A stretch of 64,000 bases of DNA from Balneolaceae bacterium (lineage in GTDB: Bacteria; Bacteroidota; Rhodothermia; Balneolales; Balneolaceae). The notes under the pieces were generated by a model. The model was not told where the DNA came from, did no database searches, and saw only the letters and a list, made by a program, of their open reading frames with translations. The stretch covers positions 1 to 64,000 of the forward strand of contig SLPZ01000073.1 of NCBI GenBank assembly GCA_007131725.1, read 5' to 3'. Numbering within the stretch: the first letter of the stretch is position 1; every line of letters begins with the position of its first letter. This document shows positions 1,219 through 59,310 of this stretch, in pieces. The translations under genes and the position numbers were made by a program.

Positions 1219-1512
1219 ATGAAATACAAAGAGCTAATAGATCGTCTCTCAGAAAAGACAGGGGATTCAAAGATAAAAACCAGGGAAATACTGCAGGATG
1301 CCGTTGATGTTTTATCGGAACAGCTTTCTCAGGGTAAAGGTGTGTCTGTACCTGATCTTGGCACCTTTAGCACGAAAGTAAATCCTGAAAAAAAAGTATA
1401 TAATCCCCATTACGAGGCCTATCTTATGGTGCCTCCCAAACGAACAGTTGAGTTTAACCCATCAACGAACCTGAAAGAAGAAGTAAAGTATCTGAAAATA
1501 AACGATGAGTGA
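1219..1512 (+). CDS. HU/IHF-family DNA-binding protein with a divergent arm
   Basis: A 97-residue protein of HU length. The N-terminal helices (MKYKELIDRLSEKTG, then REILQDAVDVLSEQL) and the turn GVSVPDLGTFS match the HU fold. HU proteins are dimeric nucleoid proteins that bend DNA with two beta arms tipped by a proline. Here the arm reads KVYNPHYEAYLMVPP instead of the usual RxGxNPxTG pattern, so DNA contact may be altered. The last 8 nt overlap the next gene, which also begins with an HU domain, so the two are probably co-translated and may form heterodimers (inference). No database match can be claimed beyond the family. Confidence 0.8.
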   Translation: MKYKELIDRLSEKTGDSKIKTREILQDAVDVLSEQLSQGKGVSVPDLGTFSTKVNPEKKVYNPHYEAYLMVPPKRTVEFNPSTNLKEEVKYLKINDE

Positions 1513-2602
1513 AAAAATCACCTTTAAAGAGCTGGTAGAACTCATCGCAAAGCAGTCTCAGCAGAGTCAGAGTTCTGCAAACAGTTTTATCACCGAGCTT
1601 GTGCAAATCATTGAAAGCGGGCTTAAATCCAGCGGTTCGGTGAGTATTTCCGGGTTTGGAAAGTTTGAGCTTCGGTGGATGAATGAACGTAAAGGAACCA
1701 ATCCTCAAACAGGTCAGGAAATTACTATTCCGGGGCAAAACAAAGTAGTTTTCAAACCTTACAAAGCACTTCGTGAGGATATTAATGCACCTTATGCAGG
1801 ACTTAAACCTCGAATAATCAGAGATCAGGTTGAAGAATCAGAGGCTGTTGCCCCGAACCCCGCAGCCAAATCAGAAAAAAAAGAATCGATCGATGACCTG
1901 CTAATTGAACGGGAGAATCCGCATTTTGTCAAACCTTTTACCAAAGAAACTAAATCAACAAAAAAGCCCGAACAAACTAAAGAGAAAAGACCTGTTGCAG
2001 CTAAAATTCCCGGCGAATCCAGGATGGCAGAAGAAGTGCAGAAGTCTGGCAGTTTCAAGTGGTCGTATGCAGCAGCTTTAATGATTGTTCTAATCGCTTT
2101 CATACTTCTGTTTTTTATGTTGCAGCGAGACACAGAAACCCCTGAGGTTCCCGCAACTGTACATATGGAACAGGTTGAACCTCCGGTTGCAGATGAAACA
2201 GATGTTGTTGCTGAACCCCGCGAACAAACCGAATTTGAAACCGAAAGTTTTTCGGTTGAACCAGGCCAGTCTCTCTGGACCATTGCCGAAAACCAACTCG
2301 GAAATCCCTATCTTTGGCCTATACTTTATAATCTGAACAGAGACTTACTTATAAATCCAAATCAATTGCCGGCAGCCTCAGAGATTCAAATTCCTACAAT
2401 TTCCGATCCCGAAAACCTGAATGAGTTTGAAAGAGAGCAGACAGCACTGGGTTATTTTTCACTTTATGAGTGGAACCGGGAAAACAACCCGGAAGAAGCA
2501 CGTTATTTTCTTTGGGCGGTAGGAGTTTTTTCACCGGAATTGCTGGATGAACCCCCATCTGAAGTTGAACCGGATGATCTGGCTTTTGCTTTAAGCAGAT
2601 AA
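1505..2602 (+). CDS. Membrane-anchored HU-domain protein with C-terminal LysM domain
   Basis: A 365-residue protein with an unusual order of domains. Residues 1-95 form a complete HU domain, including the canonical arm (RKGTNPQTGQEI around 62-73). Residues 100-185 are a charged linker rich in Lys, Glu and Pro. Residues 187-207 are a single transmembrane helix, followed by an acidic Pro/Val/Glu-rich stretch. Residues 249-299 form a LysM domain (FSVEPGQSLWTIAENQLG), and a Glu-rich tail follows. LysM domains bind peptidoglycan, and the topology puts HU in the cytoplasm and LysM in the periplasm. This suggests a protein linking DNA to the cell wall, comparable in concept to the HU-SPOR proteins of Bacteroidota. 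The domains are seen directly; the tether role is inference. The ATG overlaps the upstream HU gene by 8 nt. Confidence 0.85.
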   Translation: MSEKITFKELVELIAKQSQQSQSSANSFITELVQIIESGLKSSGSVSISGFGKFELRWMNERKGTNPQTGQEITIPGQNKVVFKPYKALREDINAPYAGLKPRIIRDQVEESEAVAPNPAAKSEKKESIDDLLIERENPHFVKPFTKETKSTKKPEQTKEKRPVAAKIPGESRMAEEVQKSGSFKWSYAAALMIVLIAFILLFFMLQRDTETPEVPATVHMEQVEPPVADETDVVAEPREQTEFETESFSVEPGQSLWTIAENQLGNPYLWPILYNLNRDLLINPNQLPAASEIQIPTISDPENLNEFEREQTALGYFSLYEWNRENNPEEARYFLWAVGVFSPELLDEPPSEVEPDDLAFALSR

Positions 2603-3013: not shown

Positions 3014-3310
3014 ATGTCTGACCATAAACCACACAGGCTGGAAATCACAGGTGTTTTAGATCTTCATCATTTCAGGCCAAAAGACCTTTCTACATTGATT
3101 GATGAATACATTGATGCCTGCCTTGAAAAGGAGATCTACCAGGTGCGATTCATTCACGGAAAAGGTATAGGAAACATCAGGCGCAGCGTACACGCCCTGC
3201 TGGACCGAAATCCTCATGTAACAGGATACCAGCTTGCAGACGGCTCAGGAGGAAGCTGGGGAGCCACCATCGCCAATCTTTCACCTGAACCTGGAGAATC
3301 TGAGCCATAA
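3014..3310 (+). CDS. Smr-domain protein
   Basis: A 98-residue stand-alone Smr domain. It has the LDLHH motif near residue 16 (GVLDLHHFRPKD) and the loop HGKGIGNIRRSVHALL near residue 49, the two hallmarks of the Smr fold at the C-terminus of MutS2. Smr domains bind or nick branched DNA or act on RNA. The small single-domain form has no MutS part, so its substrate is unknown. The ATG follows a GAGAG purine run. The last 30 nt of the gene and its downstream A-run are duplicated 306 bp further on, which suggests an insertion immediately after the stop codon. Confidence 0.85.
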   Translation: MSDHKPHRLEITGVLDLHHFRPKDLSTLIDEYIDACLEKEIYQVRFIHGKGIGNIRRSVHALLDRNPHVTGYQLADGSGGSWGATIANLSPEPGESEP

Positions 3311-3314
3311 AAAA
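3285..3314 (+). repeat. 30-bp perfect direct repeat, copy A (3' end of the Smr gene)
   Basis: The 30 bases beginning ctgaacctggagaatctgag and ending in an A-run occur again without a mismatch at 3591-3620. Copy A contains the Smr stop codon. The bases on the outer sides differ. Confidence 0.95.
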
Positions 3315-3357: not shown

Positions 3358-3515
3358 GAGGCTGTCCAAAAATATCGCGAAATTGCAATAACATAATCAA
3401 TTTCGTCATGCCGGACCCCCGATCTCCCGAAAGGGACAGGCTGGCATCTCCTGCCTATATCAAAGGCTGGAGATCCCGCATCAAGTGCGGGATGACGCCC
3501 TTTTTGGACAGCATC
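3358..3515. repeat. MITE-like palindromic repeat, family 1 copy 1
   Basis: This copy is bounded by 12-bp perfect inverted ends, gctgtccaaaaa at 3361-3372 and tttttggacagc at 3501-3512. The core at 3405-3496 is closed by gtcat/atgac and holds nested hairpins. One of these is atctcc...ggagat, and another is cccgcatcaagtgcggg. Two more copies lie at 8293-8433 and 13009-13225. There is no coding capacity, so if mobile it would need a transposase elsewhere. Confidence 0.8.
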
Positions 3516-3590: not shown

Positions 3591-3620
3591 CTGAACCTGG
3601 AGAATCTGAGCCATAAAAAA
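3591..3620 (+). repeat. 30-bp perfect direct repeat, copy B
   Basis: The second copy of the Smr 3' end, 306 bp from copy A. It abuts the minus-strand terminator of the TonB receptor gene. Confidence 0.95.
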
Positions 3621-26686: not shown

Positions 26687-29600
26687 TTGAAATCACTTGA
26701 ATCTGTATTTGGACCCAACTCAGCACTTGTAGAAGAACTCTACAAACAATATCAGGAAAACCCTGGAACGGTTCCCAGCCACTGGAAAAAATATTTTGAC
26801 GAACTGGAAGGCGTGGAAACCGAAATCCCATCTCCGGACGGAAATGGTGCACCGGTTGTAAAGGAGAAACCACCCGAACCAAAAGAAGAGAAAGAAAAGG
26901 AAAAGATTCCGGAGCCAGAAGAGCCGAAAATTCCCGAAACTGCGGAATTGCAAAAGATAAAAGGGGTGTCTTCGAAAATTGTGGACAACATGGACGAAAG
27001 TATCTATGTGCCCACAGCTACTTCTTTGCGTGTACTGCCTGTGAAAATGATGGCCGAAGACCGGGCAATTATCAACACCCATCTGCTAAGAACCGGACAC
27101 CCAAAAGCTTCTTTTACCCACTTGATTGCCTGGGCCGTAATAAAGGCCATAGAAGATTTTCCTACACTCAAGTCCTATTATGCTAAAAAAGACGGTGCTC
27201 ATCACAGGGTAATTCCAGAGGATATTAACCTTGGAATTGCGATAGACCTTGAGGGACGAGACGGCTCCCGAAATCTTGTTGTACCGAATATTAAAGGTGT
27301 AAACAAGATGAATTTCAAAGAATTTCTCTATGCTTATTCCGAACTCATAGAAAAAGCCAGAAGCGGAAATCTTGAACTTTCCGATTACCAGGAAACCACC
27401 ATCACTATCACTAATCCCGGTACAATCGGTACGGTTTCGTCAGTGCCCCGCCTGATGAAAGGCCAGGGTGCCATTATTGCCACTGGTGCCATTAACTATC
27501 CTGCAGAGTTTCAGTCCATGTCTCAGGATGTGCTGAACCAGCTTGGCGTGAGCAAGGTTATGACGATGACATGTACTTATGACCATCGCATTATCCAGGG
27601 TGCGGAATCCGGAATGTTTTTGAAAAAAGTTCACGATCTGCTGAACGGACAGGAAGATTTTTATCACCAGATTTTTACCGATCTGGAAATTCCTTACGAA
27701 CCGTTTCCCTATGGCGATGATAAATATGCGGGCCAGCTCAGCGGCAGGGCTAATACGCTGGAACAAGATCGCCGTGCTATTGCCGTTTGGCGGCTGATAA
27801 ATATGTACCGTATGCGCGGGCATGTTCTTGCTAATCTTGATCCTCTGGCTACAGAACCAAAACAAGGCCCGGAGCTGGACATCGAATACTACGGGCTTAC
27901 ACTTTGGGATCTGGATCGAGAATTTTTCTGCGATGGGCTTGGAGGTAAAAAAATCGCAAAACTTCGTGATATTCTACAGCTTCTCAGAAATACTTATTGC
28001 GGCACCATTGGTGCAGAATACATGCATCTGCTGGATCTTGAAGAGCGCAAATGGCTCAGGGAAACCATGGAATCTACTACAAATATCCCTGATCTGAACA
28101 AGGAAGATCGCAGAGAGATTTTGCATAAACTGAATCAGGCTATGGCCTTTGAACAGTTCCTGCACAAAAAATATATTGGCCATAAACGTTTTTCACTTGA
28201 AGGGGCTGAAACCCTCATCCCGATGATGCACTTTTTAATCAATCGTGCCGGAGAAAGTGACGTTGATAAATTCTTTTTGGGAATGGCACACCGCGGGCGG
28301 TTAAATATTCTGGTGAATCTGATGAATAAACCTTACCGGAAAGTTTTTGCAGATTTTGAGGGTAACATTGATCCGGACACCATCCAGGGATCGGGTGATG
28401 TGAAATACCACTTGGGTTCAAAAGGTTTTTATGAAACCGGCAAAGGTAAAAAAATTGAAGTAGAACTTTTACCAAATCCGAGTCACCTCGAAGCCGTAAA
28501 TCCCGTTGTTGAAGGTGCTGCGCGAGCCAATCAGGATCACTATGAAGGAGAAGGCGCCCGGAAAAAGATAGTGCCTCTCCTGATGCACGGTGATGCTGCA
28601 TTTGCAGGTCAGGGTGTAGTGGCAGAAACCCTAAATATGTCGCAGTTACGCGGTTATGATACGGGAGGAACCATCCACGTTATTATAAATAACCAAATTG
28701 GATTTACCACCCTGCCGGTTGATGCCCGATCAACCGAATACGCCTCAGATCTGGCCAAAATGATTCTTGCCCCGATTTTTCACGTAAACGGGGATGATCC
28801 CGAATCAGCCGTTCATGCCATTAACCTTGCCATGGATTATCGTCAAAAATTTGGCAAAGATGTGGTAATAGACCTTATCTGCTACCGCAAACATGGCCAC
28901 AATGAAGGCGACGAGCCGGCATTTACCCAGCCCGGTTTGTATAAAGAGATTGAGAACCATCCTACGGTGCGGGATATTTACCTGAAAGACCTGCTCAGAA
29001 AAGGTGAATTTACGGAAGAAGAAACTCAGGCAATTTTTGATGATTTCGACAAGCTCTTGCAGGAAGCTTTTGAGGATGCAAAAAGCTCACCGGCTCTTGA
29101 AGTTACAGACAAAATGCTGACCCGTTCTGAAGAGACCCAAAAAGAACGGGCAAGCATCCCCGATACTACTTATCCGGAAGATGAACTCAAAGAAATTGCT
29201 GTTAAGCTTAATACTGTTCCAAAAGAGTTTGATGCAAATCCAAAGCTTCTAAGGCAGTTGGCCCTTCGGGCTGAAGCGGCAGAAAATAACGAACGAAAAA
29301 TCGACTGGGGTTTTGCTGAAGCTCTCGCATTCGGCTCACTCCTGAAAAGCGGACATACTGTACGTTTAACAGGCCAGGATGCCGAAAGAGGCACATTTTC
29401 GCACCGCCACGCTGTGCTACATGGTACCGATACCAATCAAAGTTTTATTCCACTGAATAATTTGAGTGATAAGCAGGCTACTTTTTATCCCTACAACAGT
29501 CATCTGAGTGAGTTTGCTGCACTCGGTTACGAATTCGGATATTCTTCTGCAATACTTGATTCATTGGTAATCTGGGAGGCACAGTTTGGTGATTTTGCCA

Positions 29601-30325
29601 ACGGTGCACAGGTCATCATCGATCAGTTTATATCCTCTTCTGAAGCCAAATGGGGGCAGCGTTCCGCACTGGTAATGACCCTTCCTCACGGATATGAAGG
29701 CCAGGGCCCAGAACACTCATCTGCCAGATTGGAAAGGTTTTTACAGCTTTGCGCCGAAGATAATATGCAGGTAACTAACCTGACGAGCCCCACGCAGTAT
29801 TTTCACATTTTGAGAAAGCAGGTTCTCCAGGAAGTGAAAAAACCTCTCGTAATCATGTCTCCGAAAAGTTTGCTGAGACATCCTATGGCCTTTACTAATG
29901 TTGAAGAGCTCGCCACCGGCAGGTTCCAGCCATTTATTCCAGATTCTGATGCAGATGACCCGAAATCAATCGACCGGGTAGTGCTCTGCTCAGGCAAAGT
30001 TTATTACGATCTTTACAAAGAACGGGAAAACCAAGGTAAATCAAACATCGCCATAGCCAGAATTGAACAGTATTATCCATTCCCTGATAAAGATGTCAGA
30101 AATTACCTGAATGAATTGAAGCATGTGAAAGATATTGTTTGGTGCCAGGAAGAACCCAAAAACATGGGAGCCTGGACTTACATAAGCCCGAGACTTAATG
30201 AGCTCCTGCAAAATAAACAAAAACTGCGATATGCAGGACGACAAGCCTCGGCTTCGCCTGCCGCCGGGCAAAAGAAAATTCACGACGCCGAACAGGCAAG
30301 GTTGATAGAATTGGCGTTAGATTAA
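26687..30325 (+). CDS. kgd: Multifunctional 2-oxoglutarate dehydrogenase E2/E1 fusion (Kgd/OdhA type)
   Basis: A 1212-residue TCA-cycle enzyme. Residues 1-40 match the E1 N-terminal segment (SVFGPNSALVEELYKQY). Residues 45-90 are a Pro/Glu/Lys linker. Residues 90-330 form a succinyltransferase (E2) catalytic domain with active His300 in TYDHRIIQG. From about 350 on it is the thiamine-diphosphate E1 (MAHRGRLNILVNLM; GDAAFAGQGVVAETLNM; NNQIGFTT). There is no lipoyl domain, so a separate lipoylated E2 must act with it. The fusion is best known in Actinobacteria. The only start that fits is a TTG at 26687, with an in-frame stop 21 bp upstream and no Shine-Dalgarno. A bidirectional terminator follows. 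Confidence 0.93.
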   Translation: MKSLESVFGPNSALVEELYKQYQENPGTVPSHWKKYFDELEGVETEIPSPDGNGAPVVKEKPPEPKEEKEKEKIPEPEEPKIPETAELQKIKGVSSKIVDNMDESIYVPTATSLRVLPVKMMAEDRAIINTHLLRTGHPKASFTHLIAWAVIKAIEDFPTLKSYYAKKDGAHHRVIPEDINLGIAIDLEGRDGSRNLVVPNIKGVNKMNFKEFLYAYSELIEKARSGNLELSDYQETTITITNPGTIGTVSSVPRLMKGQGAIIATGAINYPAEFQSMSQDVLNQLGVSKVMTMTCTYDHRIIQGAESGMFLKKVHDLLNGQEDFYHQIFTDLEIPYEPFPYGDDKYAGQLSGRANTLEQDRRAIAVWRLINMYRMRGHVLANLDPLATEPKQGPELDIEYYGLTLWDLDREFFCDGLGGKKIAKLRDILQLLRNTYCGTIGAEYMHLLDLEERKWLRETMESTTNIPDLNKEDRREILHKLNQAMAFEQFLHKKYIGHKRFSLEGAETLIPMMHFLINRAGESDVDKFFLGMAHRGRLNILVNLMNKPYRKVFADFEGNIDPDTIQGSGDVKYHLGSKGFYETGKGKKIEVELLPNPSHLEAVNPVVEGAARANQDHYEGEGARKKIVPLLMHGDAAFAGQGVVAETLNMSQLRGYDTGGTIHVIINNQIGFTTLPVDARSTEYASDLAKMILAPIFHVNGDDPESAVHAINLAMDYRQKFGKDVVIDLICYRKHGHNEGDEPAFTQPGLYKEIENHPTVRDIYLKDLLRKGEFTEEETQAIFDDFDKLLQEAFEDAKSSPALEVTDKMLTRSEETQKERASIPDTTYPEDELKEIAVKLNTVPKEFDANPKLLRQLALRAEAAENNERKIDWGFAEALAFGSLLKSGHTVRLTGQDAERGTFSHRHAVLHGTDTNQSFIPLNNLSDKQATFYPYNSHLSEFAALGYEFGYSSAILDSLVIWEAQFGDFANGAQVIIDQFISSSEAKWGQRSALVMTLPHGYEGQGPEHSSARLERFLQLCAEDNMQVTNLTSPTQYFHILRKQVLQEVKKPLVIMSPKSLLRHPMAFTNVEELATGRFQPFIPDSDADDPKSIDRVVLCSGKVYYDLYKERENQGKSNIAIARIEQYYPFPDKDVRNYLNELKHVKDIVWCQEEPKNMGAWTYISPRLNELLQNKQKLRYAGRQASASPAAGQKKIHDAEQARLIELALD

Positions 30326-55500: not shown

Positions 55501-58500
55501 ATGAAATTTGAGGGACATCGCATTTGGATTGCGCTTTTATTAGCCGTTTTGATCGTAAGTGGATATTTTTTCTATACCTTTCGATCAAATCAGGCACAAC
55601 TGCATGACCAGAGTATCCGGAGTCTTAGTATTACCCAATCCAACCTGAAGAATAGTTGGGAGGCCTATAAAATGCGCTGCAGAATACCTCCAGATGTCGG
55701 TGGAATAGAGGAAACAAACATTTCAGAAACTGACAGTTTGAAAAAAGTACTGAACATCTTGCTCAGTTCTATGCCCCCCAGCGATTTTTTCGATATAACC
55801 ATTATTACCGACTCTTCCGGGCAGGTGCTGGTTACCAAACCTGAAGCAATTATTGACAGGATGCCGGTAGGCGAGAACATTCAAACAGAAGAAATAAAAC
55901 TCGGCATTATAGACTCTGAACTAACTATTTCAGGTGACAATTACCAAATATTCCAGGTGCCCATACACTTGCAATGGGACCAACAAAATTGCCTCTGGAG
56001 ATCTGAAAACCAAGATTCAGAAAATGCAAACCAGGACATAGAATCTGAAAACCTGAATTCGGAAACTGAAAATCAGAACTCAGAACCTGATAACCTAAAA
56101 TCTGAATCTGAAAAAATCATTCTTTACGGTGCCCTTAGTCAGGAAAATTTTAACCAGGTTCGCTGGCGTATTCCGTTTATAGCCATTTATTTTCTGCTAA
56201 GCCTCGTAATTTTAATTATTGCCTCTTACCCTGTAATTCGAATTTTGGGAATGGGACGAGGCGATAGAATGACAGGTTCACAGGTATATCAGACAGGGCT
56301 CTCCCTTATTCTCCTTTCGCTATTTATAGGATTTTCTATCTCTTACTTTGCCAGCAGGCATGAAATCAAAAATAATCAGAGTGATTATGTGCAGAGCCTC
56401 ATTAATAATGTTGAGAAAATGCAGAAAGCTCAACTTTCAAAGTACATAATGTTATTGGATTTATTCATCAAAGTAGGAGGTGAACCTGTAAATAAATCTA
56501 ATATACAATATAATGAAACGATTGTAAGTGATATTGAGGGAAATATCCAACACTTGTGGCTTAGTTCAGATAAAAAAGCGATTGAAGATACTTTAATAAA
56601 TGATTTACCTGATTTAGCCACTCGGCATTATATAAAACGAGCTGTTGATGATAATTTTTATCATGGATCTCATTACTCATATAATCGGGGAAAATTCGAA
56701 AATGTAATCAGCAAGAAAAAGGTTTATTCAAACGAAAGAGACCACTCATATGAATTGATTCATGCAATAACTTTCAACAACGAAATTTATGATGCAGTAG
56801 ATACCTTATATACGAATCCAATTGGCCTGAAATATCTCATCATCAATGAAATCGGCGAGGTATATTATCGGCCGCCTTCGGTGAATACGGCTATTTTTAA
56901 CCTGAGAGAGGCAATACATCCTCGTCAATGGGATGAGGTTCTGGTATTGATGCAGAATAACGATTCTACGGAAACACCATTGCAAATTAATATCTATTTT
57001 GAAGGCCAGCGTTTTAATGCCTTTCTGCAAAAAATGTCTACAGAACCACTCAATCTGAAAGAATCCTCCTGGATTCTCGTGTTCGACGATCCCAATCTGC
57101 TGGCATTTCGCAGTTACTCGGCATTTATGTATTCGGCTGTCGGTTATTTATTCCTGCTGATTATTTTCCTTGCCATTGGCCTGATATCGTATGCGATCAG
57201 GCCGGAGGTCTATTATCTCTCATTCCGCAGGTTTAATCAATATTTTTTCAGGCCGTCTTTTAAGAAGCGCAAAGAGAATGTAATCCTATGTTTGATCATA
57301 TCTACGCATATCCTCTTTTTTATCATCATTTTAAATTGTATAGATATTCATCACATTTGGCTGCTTTTACTTCTTTTTGGGTTAACCGTTCCATTTATCA
57401 TACTATCGCGGCACCTCCTGCTGTCTGATTTTCTTCAAAAACTAACAACAGCATCATCCTGGAAATTTCCACTGTCGGTATTCGCTGTTATTCTGCTGAT
57501 CCTTTATTTCCTTTATCACTTGCCGGTTATCGAATTTCACTACTTATTGATTTTATTATTTCTGTTAGGAATTCAAGCCGGATGGATAATATTTATCATA
57601 TGGGCATTCAATAACTATCCGTTTCAGATTCAAAAAAAATTAAAAAAAATACTCTGGCTCCGTGGCATATCAAACTTTATAAAGGCGTTTGTTCGAAACC
57701 CGAATCAAATGTTTTCTTTTACATTTGCAATTTGGGCGCTGCTGATCGGAATGATTGCGGGTTATGCCATTCATCACTCCGCATTCCATTATGAAGACAA
57801 ACTCTGGGAGCTTGCAGTTGAACACAAGACCGGAGAACCACACCTTCACGAAGACAATAAAAACCATGTGGAACATTCTTCCAGAAGTACCAATCATGAT
57901 CACAACGGCCATTTTCATACGGCAAGTTTAAATCCCTTTTTAAATCACTTTGAGTATTGGCGAAGGCAATGGCTCTTTAATTATACGGGTATAGATTATC
58001 CGGTCATCAACCGTTATATCTATGCCGGAAGATCCCAAATTATGGATGCCTTTGATCACGATCATACTGAAGAAAATGATCATTCTCACCAAGTTCACCA
58101 TTCAAAAGAACCACTAACTTTATTTCTGATCGTTCTTTCATTTCTTGCTGGTTTTATGCTGCTCTATTATCTCGTAAAAATCCTCTCAAAACGCATTTTC
58201 CTGACTGAATACTGGAAATTTTTGCCCGATCCGGCACCTGCTCCAAAAATCAAAAACTATACCTATATACTGACCCCTGATCCCGAAAATGCGCTGAGGG
58301 AACTCCAATCCGGGTTTTTAAAGAATAAAAAATACAAAATACTCAATCTCGCCGGACGGTCGGAACGGGAAAAATTGCGACGGACTGAAGCATCCGGCAG
58401 TATTCCATTTGGCATCCTGTTGAAAGACACCGACGGAATTGCATTACTGAATGCAGACCGTGCACTCCGCTCTTCAGATGACATCGAAAATCTCACAGAT

Positions 58501-59310
58501 CTTATTACAATCTTCAAACAAAAGGAAAAATTTGTTCTGATGACCGGATCAAAAAGCATGAAAGACCTGCAGGAATCCGTGCTTTCCGACAAGGATCCCG
58601 AGCGGGACCATGCACTGCTGAACTGGATGGATGTAACAGGATCGTTTTTTTCAAGCCTCATACCCGTCGGTTACGGGCTTAAACCACCTGAGCCCGGCAA
58701 AGAATCATCCGGCAACAAATATGTCGAAAAGCTGAGAAGAGAAATTTTGTACGGCCCTCACACAAAAGCACTTTCCTATCTTGTAAAACTCGCTGATAAT
58801 GAAGCAAAATCCGGAAAATTTGGCAAAAAAGAGTACCAGAGATGCATCCTGAATATTCAAAGGCACAACAAATCGTATTATCAGAATTTATGGGATCAGC
58901 TCACATTCCGTGAAAAACAGATGGTGAATAACTATGCAAATGAAGGATTTGTAAACTACTCCAATATCGGTGTGGTAACAGAATTACTCCAAAAGGGCAT
59001 TTTCAGATATGACGACCGGCACGAAGACATCAGGCTTTTTAACATAAGCTTCTGCAATTTTGCAACTCAGGCCGTAACCGGTCAGCTTGCCAAAGAATTT
59101 AAAAAAGATAAAAAACTGCACGGAAATGTAAGCCATTTAAGAAATGCTATTCTTACAATTTTTTTCCTTACCATTCTCGGTATTGCCATTATCAGGCCAG
59201 AACTACCCCAGCAATATATTGGTGCCATCAGCGGCGGTCTTGCCCTCATCAGCTCTCTTGCATCGGTTGCCGGTAAACTCCCTTGGAACATTCCCATTCT
59301 CGAAAAGTAA
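55501..59310 (+). CDS. Large multi-pass sensor-like membrane protein with His-rich outer loops
   Basis: A 1269-residue protein I do not recognise as a named family. Predicted helices are at 8-26, 224-247, 263-283, 541-566, 593-613, 617-640, 656-674, 680-703, 738-757, 872-893, 1214-1232 and 1238-1257. The topology puts 27-223 and 284-540 outside as two Cache-like domains. It also puts 758-871 outside, with two His-rich stretches (756-806, 851-867) suited to binding Zn, Ni or Cu. Residues 167-205 are a Ser/Glu/Asn low-complexity loop. The cytoplasmic part 894-1213 includes LTFREKQMVNNYANEGFVNYSN near 1134, resembling a winged-helix region in STAND-NTPase membrane proteins; no P-loop is present. 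GGAG lies upstream of the ATG. Confidence 0.75.
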   Translation: MKFEGHRIWIALLLAVLIVSGYFFYTFRSNQAQLHDQSIRSLSITQSNLKNSWEAYKMRCRIPPDVGGIEETNISETDSLKKVLNILLSSMPPSDFFDITIITDSSGQVLVTKPEAIIDRMPVGENIQTEEIKLGIIDSELTISGDNYQIFQVPIHLQWDQQNCLWRSENQDSENANQDIESENLNSETENQNSEPDNLKSESEKIILYGALSQENFNQVRWRIPFIAIYFLLSLVILIIASYPVIRILGMGRGDRMTGSQVYQTGLSLILLSLFIGFSISYFASRHEIKNNQSDYVQSLINNVEKMQKAQLSKYIMLLDLFIKVGGEPVNKSNIQYNETIVSDIEGNIQHLWLSSDKKAIEDTLINDLPDLATRHYIKRAVDDNFYHGSHYSYNRGKFENVISKKKVYSNERDHSYELIHAITFNNEIYDAVDTLYTNPIGLKYLIINEIGEVYYRPPSVNTAIFNLREAIHPRQWDEVLVLMQNNDSTETPLQINIYFEGQRFNAFLQKMSTEPLNLKESSWILVFDDPNLLAFRSYSAFMYSAVGYLFLLIIFLAIGLISYAIRPEVYYLSFRRFNQYFFRPSFKKRKENVILCLIISTHILFFIIILNCIDIHHIWLLLLLFGLTVPFIILSRHLLLSDFLQKLTTASSWKFPLSVFAVILLILYFLYHLPVIEFHYLLILLFLLGIQAGWIIFIIWAFNNYPFQIQKKLKKILWLRGISNFIKAFVRNPNQMFSFTFAIWALLIGMIAGYAIHHSAFHYEDKLWELAVEHKTGEPHLHEDNKNHVEHSSRSTNHDHNGHFHTASLNPFLNHFEYWRRQWLFNYTGIDYPVINRYIYAGRSQIMDAFDHDHTEENDHSHQVHHSKEPLTLFLIVLSFLAGFMLLYYLVKILSKRIFLTEYWKFLPDPAPAPKIKNYTYILTPDPENALRELQSGFLKNKKYKILNLAGRSEREKLRRTEASGSIPFGILLKDTDGIALLNADRALRSSDDIENLTDLITIFKQKEKFVLMTGSKSMKDLQESVLSDKDPERDHALLNWMDVTGSFFSSLIPVGYGLKPPEPGKESSGNKYVEKLRREILYGPHTKALSYLVKLADNEAKSGKFGKKEYQRCILNIQRHNKSYYQNLWDQLTFREKQMVNNYANEGFVNYSNIGVVTELLQKGIFRYDDRHEDIRLFNISFCNFATQAVTGQLAKEFKKDKKLHGNVSHLRNAILTIFFLTILGIAIIRPELPQQYIGAISGGLALISSLASVAGKLPWNIPILEK

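Follow-up and report, generated by a model that had tools for sequence, protein, structure and literature searches.

The window analysed here, a stretch of 64,000 nucleotides from a Balneolaceae bacterium, carries two adjacent genes encoding a free-standing HU-like protein (HU1) and a protein in which a second HU domain (HU2) is joined through a membrane helix to a LysM domain (HU-TM-LysM). This HU-LysM pair is real, conserved and functionally coupled, and the system it represents is present in at least two distant orders of Bacteroidota. We cautiously favor the view that the two products form an HU1:HU2 heterodimer at the inner membrane which, bound to peptidoglycan via LysM, acts as a nucleoid-envelope tether.

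HU-TM-LysM is a modular membrane protein

The HU-TM-LysM gene lies, like all other features of the pair, on the forward strand of the window, and runs from an ATG at 1505 to a stop at 2602, encoding 365 aa. This is the frame delineated by an earlier sequence-only reading, which had also described an intact HU domain with a canonical arm and a single membrane helix, both of which are borne out. The HU domain (residues 7–94; 1523–1786), detected by Pfam and NCBIfam, matches PF00216 with an E-value of 3e-24 and 85.5 bits (gathering threshold 22.4), a score that places it in the HU/IHF family. Its best NCBIfam match is IHF-alpha (4.3e-17, below the equivalog cut-off), and its fold matches HU structures in the PDB. 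The tip of the arm, NPQTG (residues 66–70; 1700–1714), sits in a hairpin spanning residues 62–75 in the AlphaFold2 (AF2) model, and its P67 aligns as a proline of the intercalating type. The HU domain is followed by a disordered and charged linker of ~92 aa (1790–2065), predicted to be cytoplasmic, the length of which varies widely among aligned relatives. Then comes the membrane helix (residues 188–206; 2066–2122), which has a mean Kyte-Doolittle hydropathy of 2.88, compared with at most 0.7 in the rest of the protein, is also seen in the AF2 model, and is retained in all HU-TM-LysM relatives. On the other side of the helix, alignment and AF2 delineate an acidic/proline-rich linker of ~39 aa (2123–2239), predicted to be periplasmic, a divergent LysM domain (residues ~246–298; 2240–2398), and a helical C-terminal extension packed after LysM (residues ~304–364; 2414–2596), which is conserved in Balneolaceae. 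The AF2 pLDDT is ~90 for the HU domain and ~96 for LysM and the tail, and it drops below 50 in the linker (residues 106–169). The closest relatives in GTDB contigs come from Balneolaceae metagenome-assembled genomes and Rhodohalobacter isolates, and since isolates are among them, the HU-TM-LysM architecture is not an assembly artefact.

An HU-like partner is encoded directly upstream

Immediately upstream of HU-TM-LysM, a 97-aa protein is encoded at 1219–1512, which had been proposed to be a second HU-like protein with a divergent arm. This assignment holds. HU1 matches PF00216 with an E-value of 4.4e-20 and 72.1 bits (cut-off 22.4), which places it in the HU/IHF family as well, and AF2 predicts an HU fold (pLDDT 84) for which the top Foldseek matches are all HU/IHF proteins. 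The tip of its arm, YNPHY, keeps the proline but has lost the TG of the NPxTG motif. The two genes overlap by 8 nt (1505–1512), and with nominal starts, 57 of 87 pairs have an HU1-HU2 gap of -8 or -4. The 8-nt overlap likely reflects translational coupling.

Over all loci that we collected, there are 90 distinct HU-TM-LysM ORFs, and HU1 is found directly upstream of 87 of them. One of the three exceptions lies at a contig end (L070), while the other two are natural fusions of HU1 and HU2. In G545 (L180/L248), a single 361-aa ORF (L248:3275-4360) consists of two HU stretches, followed by a membrane helix and LysM. In G467 (L238), as well as in its congener G569 (L243), a single ORF consists of a divergent HU1-like region, an HU2-like region without arm, the helix and LysM; the first region of this type matches the HU1 profile in hhalign (95.5%, E=1.5e-8). 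These counts and fusions lend strong support to the two-component system that had been suggested on first inspection of the DNA. Since two normally adjacent genes are naturally fused, it can be argued, as in the Rosetta-stone approach, that their products act in one complex. The HU fold being an obligate, intertwined dimer, the simple reading of the fusions is a heterodimer, and we infer that HU1 and HU2 would form one resembling IHF.

The pair is widespread and travels as a unit

A profile of the HU-TM-LysM protein was searched against 92 Balneolaceae genomes and 36 genomes from the other families of the order. The protein was found in 74 of the 92 Balneolaceae genomes, while none of the 36 others had a full-length HU-TM-LysM, and HU1 follows the same pattern. 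The best matches in the other families, which had looked like orthologues, were rejected: the protein in G125 is a free HU of the ordinary type that lacks an adjoining membrane partner, and no such partner is present at the locus in G124. Since the pair is missing from 18 of 92 Balneolaceae genomes, some of which are near-complete, it is not essential for this lineage. Searches across the phylum, in which only a few candidates were scored per genome, revealed relatives of full length in G324 and G331, members of a distant family. In this distant order, which gene order indicates is probably Bacteroidales, matches at E<=1e-27 were obtained in 33 of 198 genomes. The domain search across genomes that had been called for by the initial reading thus finds this architecture well beyond the window.

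In Balneolaceae, the pair remains intact in at least two unrelated kinds of neighborhood. The first has an aconitase gene upstream (named by eye from its sequence) and Dabb/Smr genes downstream, while the second is marked by genes resembling those for gamma carbonic anhydrase and HemW (both also named by eye from sequence). In G324 and G331, the pair lies between a gene for a RimO-type radical-SAM protein and a gene for a MoxR ATPase, and all the HU1-HU2-TM-LysM fusions are at this rimO/moxR locus. Overall, the two genes are paired across at least three different genomic neighborhoods, which shows that HU1 and HU-TM-LysM travel together. The neighbors themselves were discarded as a clue to function, being housekeeping genes that differ by lineage.

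Three other features of the window were recorded. An exact 30-nt direct repeat, at 3285–3314 and 3591–3620 (306 nt apart), spans the end of the Smr gene, with a repeat-like GC-rich segment at 3411–3435 between the two copies, an arrangement that resembles the insertion of an element accompanied by duplication of the gene end. Further downstream, 26687–30325 encodes a 2-oxoglutarate dehydrogenase E1 with a fused N-terminal E2-type acyltransferase domain, a Kgd-like multifunctional enzyme, and 55501–59310 is a 1269-aa ORF with no Pfam match at E<=1e-5.

The two HU domains form distinct clades with asymmetric arms

A tree of 45 HU1, 45 HU2 and 22 ordinary HU sequences, built on 100 columns and excluding the HU domains of HU-SPOR proteins, groups all HU2 in one clade (support 100/99) and all HU1 in another (99/97). 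Each of these clades unites both orders, apart from the sampled ordinary HUs, although the inner forks are weak. Such a pattern fits a single ancient origin of the pair better than its having been invented several times.

The arms of the two domains have fared differently. The tip proline is present in HU1 in 85 of 87 pairs, and in HU2 in 60 of 87. In Balneolaceae, the HU2 arm is the canonical NP-QTG, whereas in the distant order, its tip reads NV, NI or NS, with V, I or S for proline, or the arm is absent altogether. This asymmetric evolution is what would be expected if a single arm is enough for the heterodimer. At four loci (L244, L245, L246 and L247), HU2 has no DNA arm while the adjoining HU1 gene encodes a full-length HU fold, making these pairs candidates for a one-armed heterodimer.

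We infer that HU1 and HU2 would bind DNA, but the HU domains could instead have turned into modules for protein-protein contacts, a change proposed for HU of the CCDC81 type, and would then no longer bind DNA but serve in a complex that organizes a cytoplasmic protein at the wall. The net charge of HU1 and HU2, which is near zero (median 0), speaks for such modules and lends no support to strong DNA binding; however, it is uninformative as a test of DNA binding since sampled ordinary HUs, at -5 to +15, overlap this range. The loss of the HU2 arm in several genomes, and a weak similarity of HU1 to CCDC81-type HU (3.2e-7), point in the same direction. Against this stand the canonical HU2 arm of Balneolaceae and the persistence of the HU1 tip proline in both orders, and we regard this alternative as quite unlikely.

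The LysM domain is predicted to face the wall

The topology of HU-TM-LysM was assessed in the 90 ORFs by counting Lys and Arg within 20 residues of the helix. There are on average 3.8 on the N-terminal side and 1.4 on the C-terminal side, the count being higher on the N-terminal side in 77 ORFs, equal in 5 and lower in 8. Since this positive-inside bias is accompanied by the absence of any apparent signal peptide in the HU-TM-LysM protein, an orientation with cytoplasmic HU and LysM on the outer side is favored, which would place LysM in the periplasm. The flexible linkers, with ~92 aa inside and ~39 aa outside, would give the protein reach to both nucleoid and wall.

Membrane one-component regulators of the ToxR/CadC type share this topology, which raises the alternative that the periplasmic part, including LysM, senses the state of the wall while the HU heterodimer, held at the membrane, regulates particular promoters as an architectural factor. 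An HU pair that resembles IHF could indeed be sequence-specific. However, there is no conserved regulated neighbor at the loci, the surroundings being unrelated and variable, and HU/IHF proteins are architectural, none being known to us as a lone activator. Such an envelope sensor is, in our judgment, unlikely.

The LysM domain, which had been claimed from the window alone, is only weakly recognizable in the lone sequence. The window protein matches Pfam LysM (PF01476) with an E-value of only 0.06 (13.7 bits against a cut-off of 20.9) and NCBIfam PRK11198 with 2e-5, the domain having the motif GxSLWxIA...LWPxxYxLN...NPNQLP...IP. When the family profile is used, there are matches to LysM proteins of solved structure, including Kbp (6e-8), TsaP (1e-6) and a phage tail LysM (3e-10). 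Moreover, 6 of 24 relatives match Pfam LysM at E<0.01, and a distant relative (L152) scores above the Pfam cut-off with 22.6 bits. At one rimO/moxR locus (L249:4700-6088), the C-terminal LysM part of an HU1 and HU2-TM pair is only weakly recognizable, and the wall domain there may be decaying or have been replaced.

While LysM of HU-TM-LysM is predicted to bind peptidoglycan, this is not guaranteed by homology since one LysM homologue, Kbp, senses K+ in the cytoplasm. LysM could have another periplasmic or outer-membrane component as its partner, in which case DNA would be linked to the membrane only. Besides Kbp, the phage tail LysM is another non-wall protein among the closest solved relatives, and in Balneolaceae, conservation is as high in the C-terminal helical tail as in LysM. 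However, LysM of the TsaP type is wall-associated, and the parallel HU-SPOR design has a wall-binding domain. We retain peptidoglycan as the predicted ligand and regard a non-wall partner as very improbable.

HU-TM-LysM resembles, but is distinct from, known systems

HU-SPOR proteins had been put forward as a comparable idea already known in Bacteroidota, and they are the nearest known design to the HU-LysM pair. HU-CCDC81_bac/HU-TM-SPOR proteins of Bacteroidota were reportedly described in 2017 by Burroughs, Kaur, Zhang and Aravind (Cell Cycle 16:1093), who are said to have predicted a role in chromosome partition; HU-SPOR-like systems have so far been predicted only. Both designs have predicted cytoplasmic HU-type domain(s), a membrane helix and a C-terminal domain of the wall-binding type, but the HU-LysM pair has LysM as its wall domain, an intact HU arm in the window protein, and a separate gene for the second HU. 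Neither the window protein nor any member of our alignment matched SPOR, and CCDC81_bac scores are below cut-off for both HU2 (19.3 for PF18175, cut-off 35) and HU1 (22.1 for PF18174, cut-off 26; 19.0 for PF18175, cut-off 35). The same genome encodes an HU-SPOR protein on another contig (C162; L153:3660-4898, minus strand). This protein of 412 aa combines an HU domain (E=6.3e-7), a membrane helix and a SPOR domain (E=1.4e-12). Its gene is directly followed by TolQ/ExbB-, TolR/ExbD- and TonB-like genes, the whole cluster spanning L153:1687-4898, an order that is also seen at loci of relatives (L154 and L155) and suggests a link of HU-SPOR to envelope energization or constriction. An HU-SPOR profile matches 123 of the 128 genomes of the order, some of these matches covering the SPOR part only.

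The score for HU-HIG (PF18291) was passed, with 30.3 and 41.5 against a cut-off of 26.2. Membership in this family was nevertheless rejected because HUs of 9 of 14 control genomes pass too, including that of E. coli, and the fused part is TM-LysM rather than wHTH, Ig or Gly-rich. As in the IHF alpha/beta and E. coli HU alpha/beta heterodimers, there are two different HU-fold subunits, but those proteins are soluble and have neither a wall domain nor a membrane helix. The LysM subtype is shared, by profile, with Kbp (YgaU) and TsaP; however, these have no HU domain, Kbp being cytoplasmic and TsaP secretin-associated.

No paper describing HU-LysM was found in the open literature, outside which most subscription journals lie. 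There is, however, a Bacteroidetes-only HU clade, HU_bacL, with a long charged C-terminal extension (PMC5683647, PLoS One 2017). Its members average 238 aa, with 19 K, 9 R, 13 D and 31 E (PMC5683647), compared with 331 aa, 20 K, 10 R, 24 D and 43 E for HU-TM-LysM. The main text of that paper contains no occurrence of a membrane helix or LysM, and appears to name no partner gene, whereas HU-TM-LysM has both features and is paired with HU1. From the description and composition given there, HU_bacL is a candidate for, and likely is, the HU-TM-LysM family. Of the sequence-only interpretation, the two-component part gains strong support and the tether idea survives, but the system is not an isolated one, and the clade to which it likely belongs had already been noted.

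A candidate tether between chromosome and cell wall

As far as can be read from sequence, the domain order, the coupling of the genes, the retention of both partners, the fusions and the separate clades are established. In the tether that we favor, the two genes would encode an obligate two-subunit machine, in which the HU1 and HU2 domains pair as an IHF-like heterodimer whose arms grip and bend DNA. The flexible acidic linker would let this HU clamp extend into the nucleoid while the single helix anchors it in the inner membrane, and LysM, on its short linker, would hold peptidoglycan in the periplasm. The outcome would be a physical connection running from the nucleoid, or a specific locus, through the membrane to the cell wall, which could be used to hold or position the chromosome through growth and division. 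A role in chromosome organization is what this arrangement would imply.

To our knowledge, a direct protein link between chromosome and cell wall has been demonstrated in no bacterium, and little is known of how Bacteroidota position their chromosomes. Being a conserved unit of two genes that are naturally fused in places, the HU-LysM pair represents a small and testable candidate for a tether, and the co-existing HU-SPOR protein provides a built-in comparison. More tentatively, with chances that we put a little short of even, the pair may be an ancient and recurrent two-gene tether of Bacteroidota, which would couple the chromosome, or one site on it, to peptidoglycan, beside an HU-SPOR tether in the same cell.
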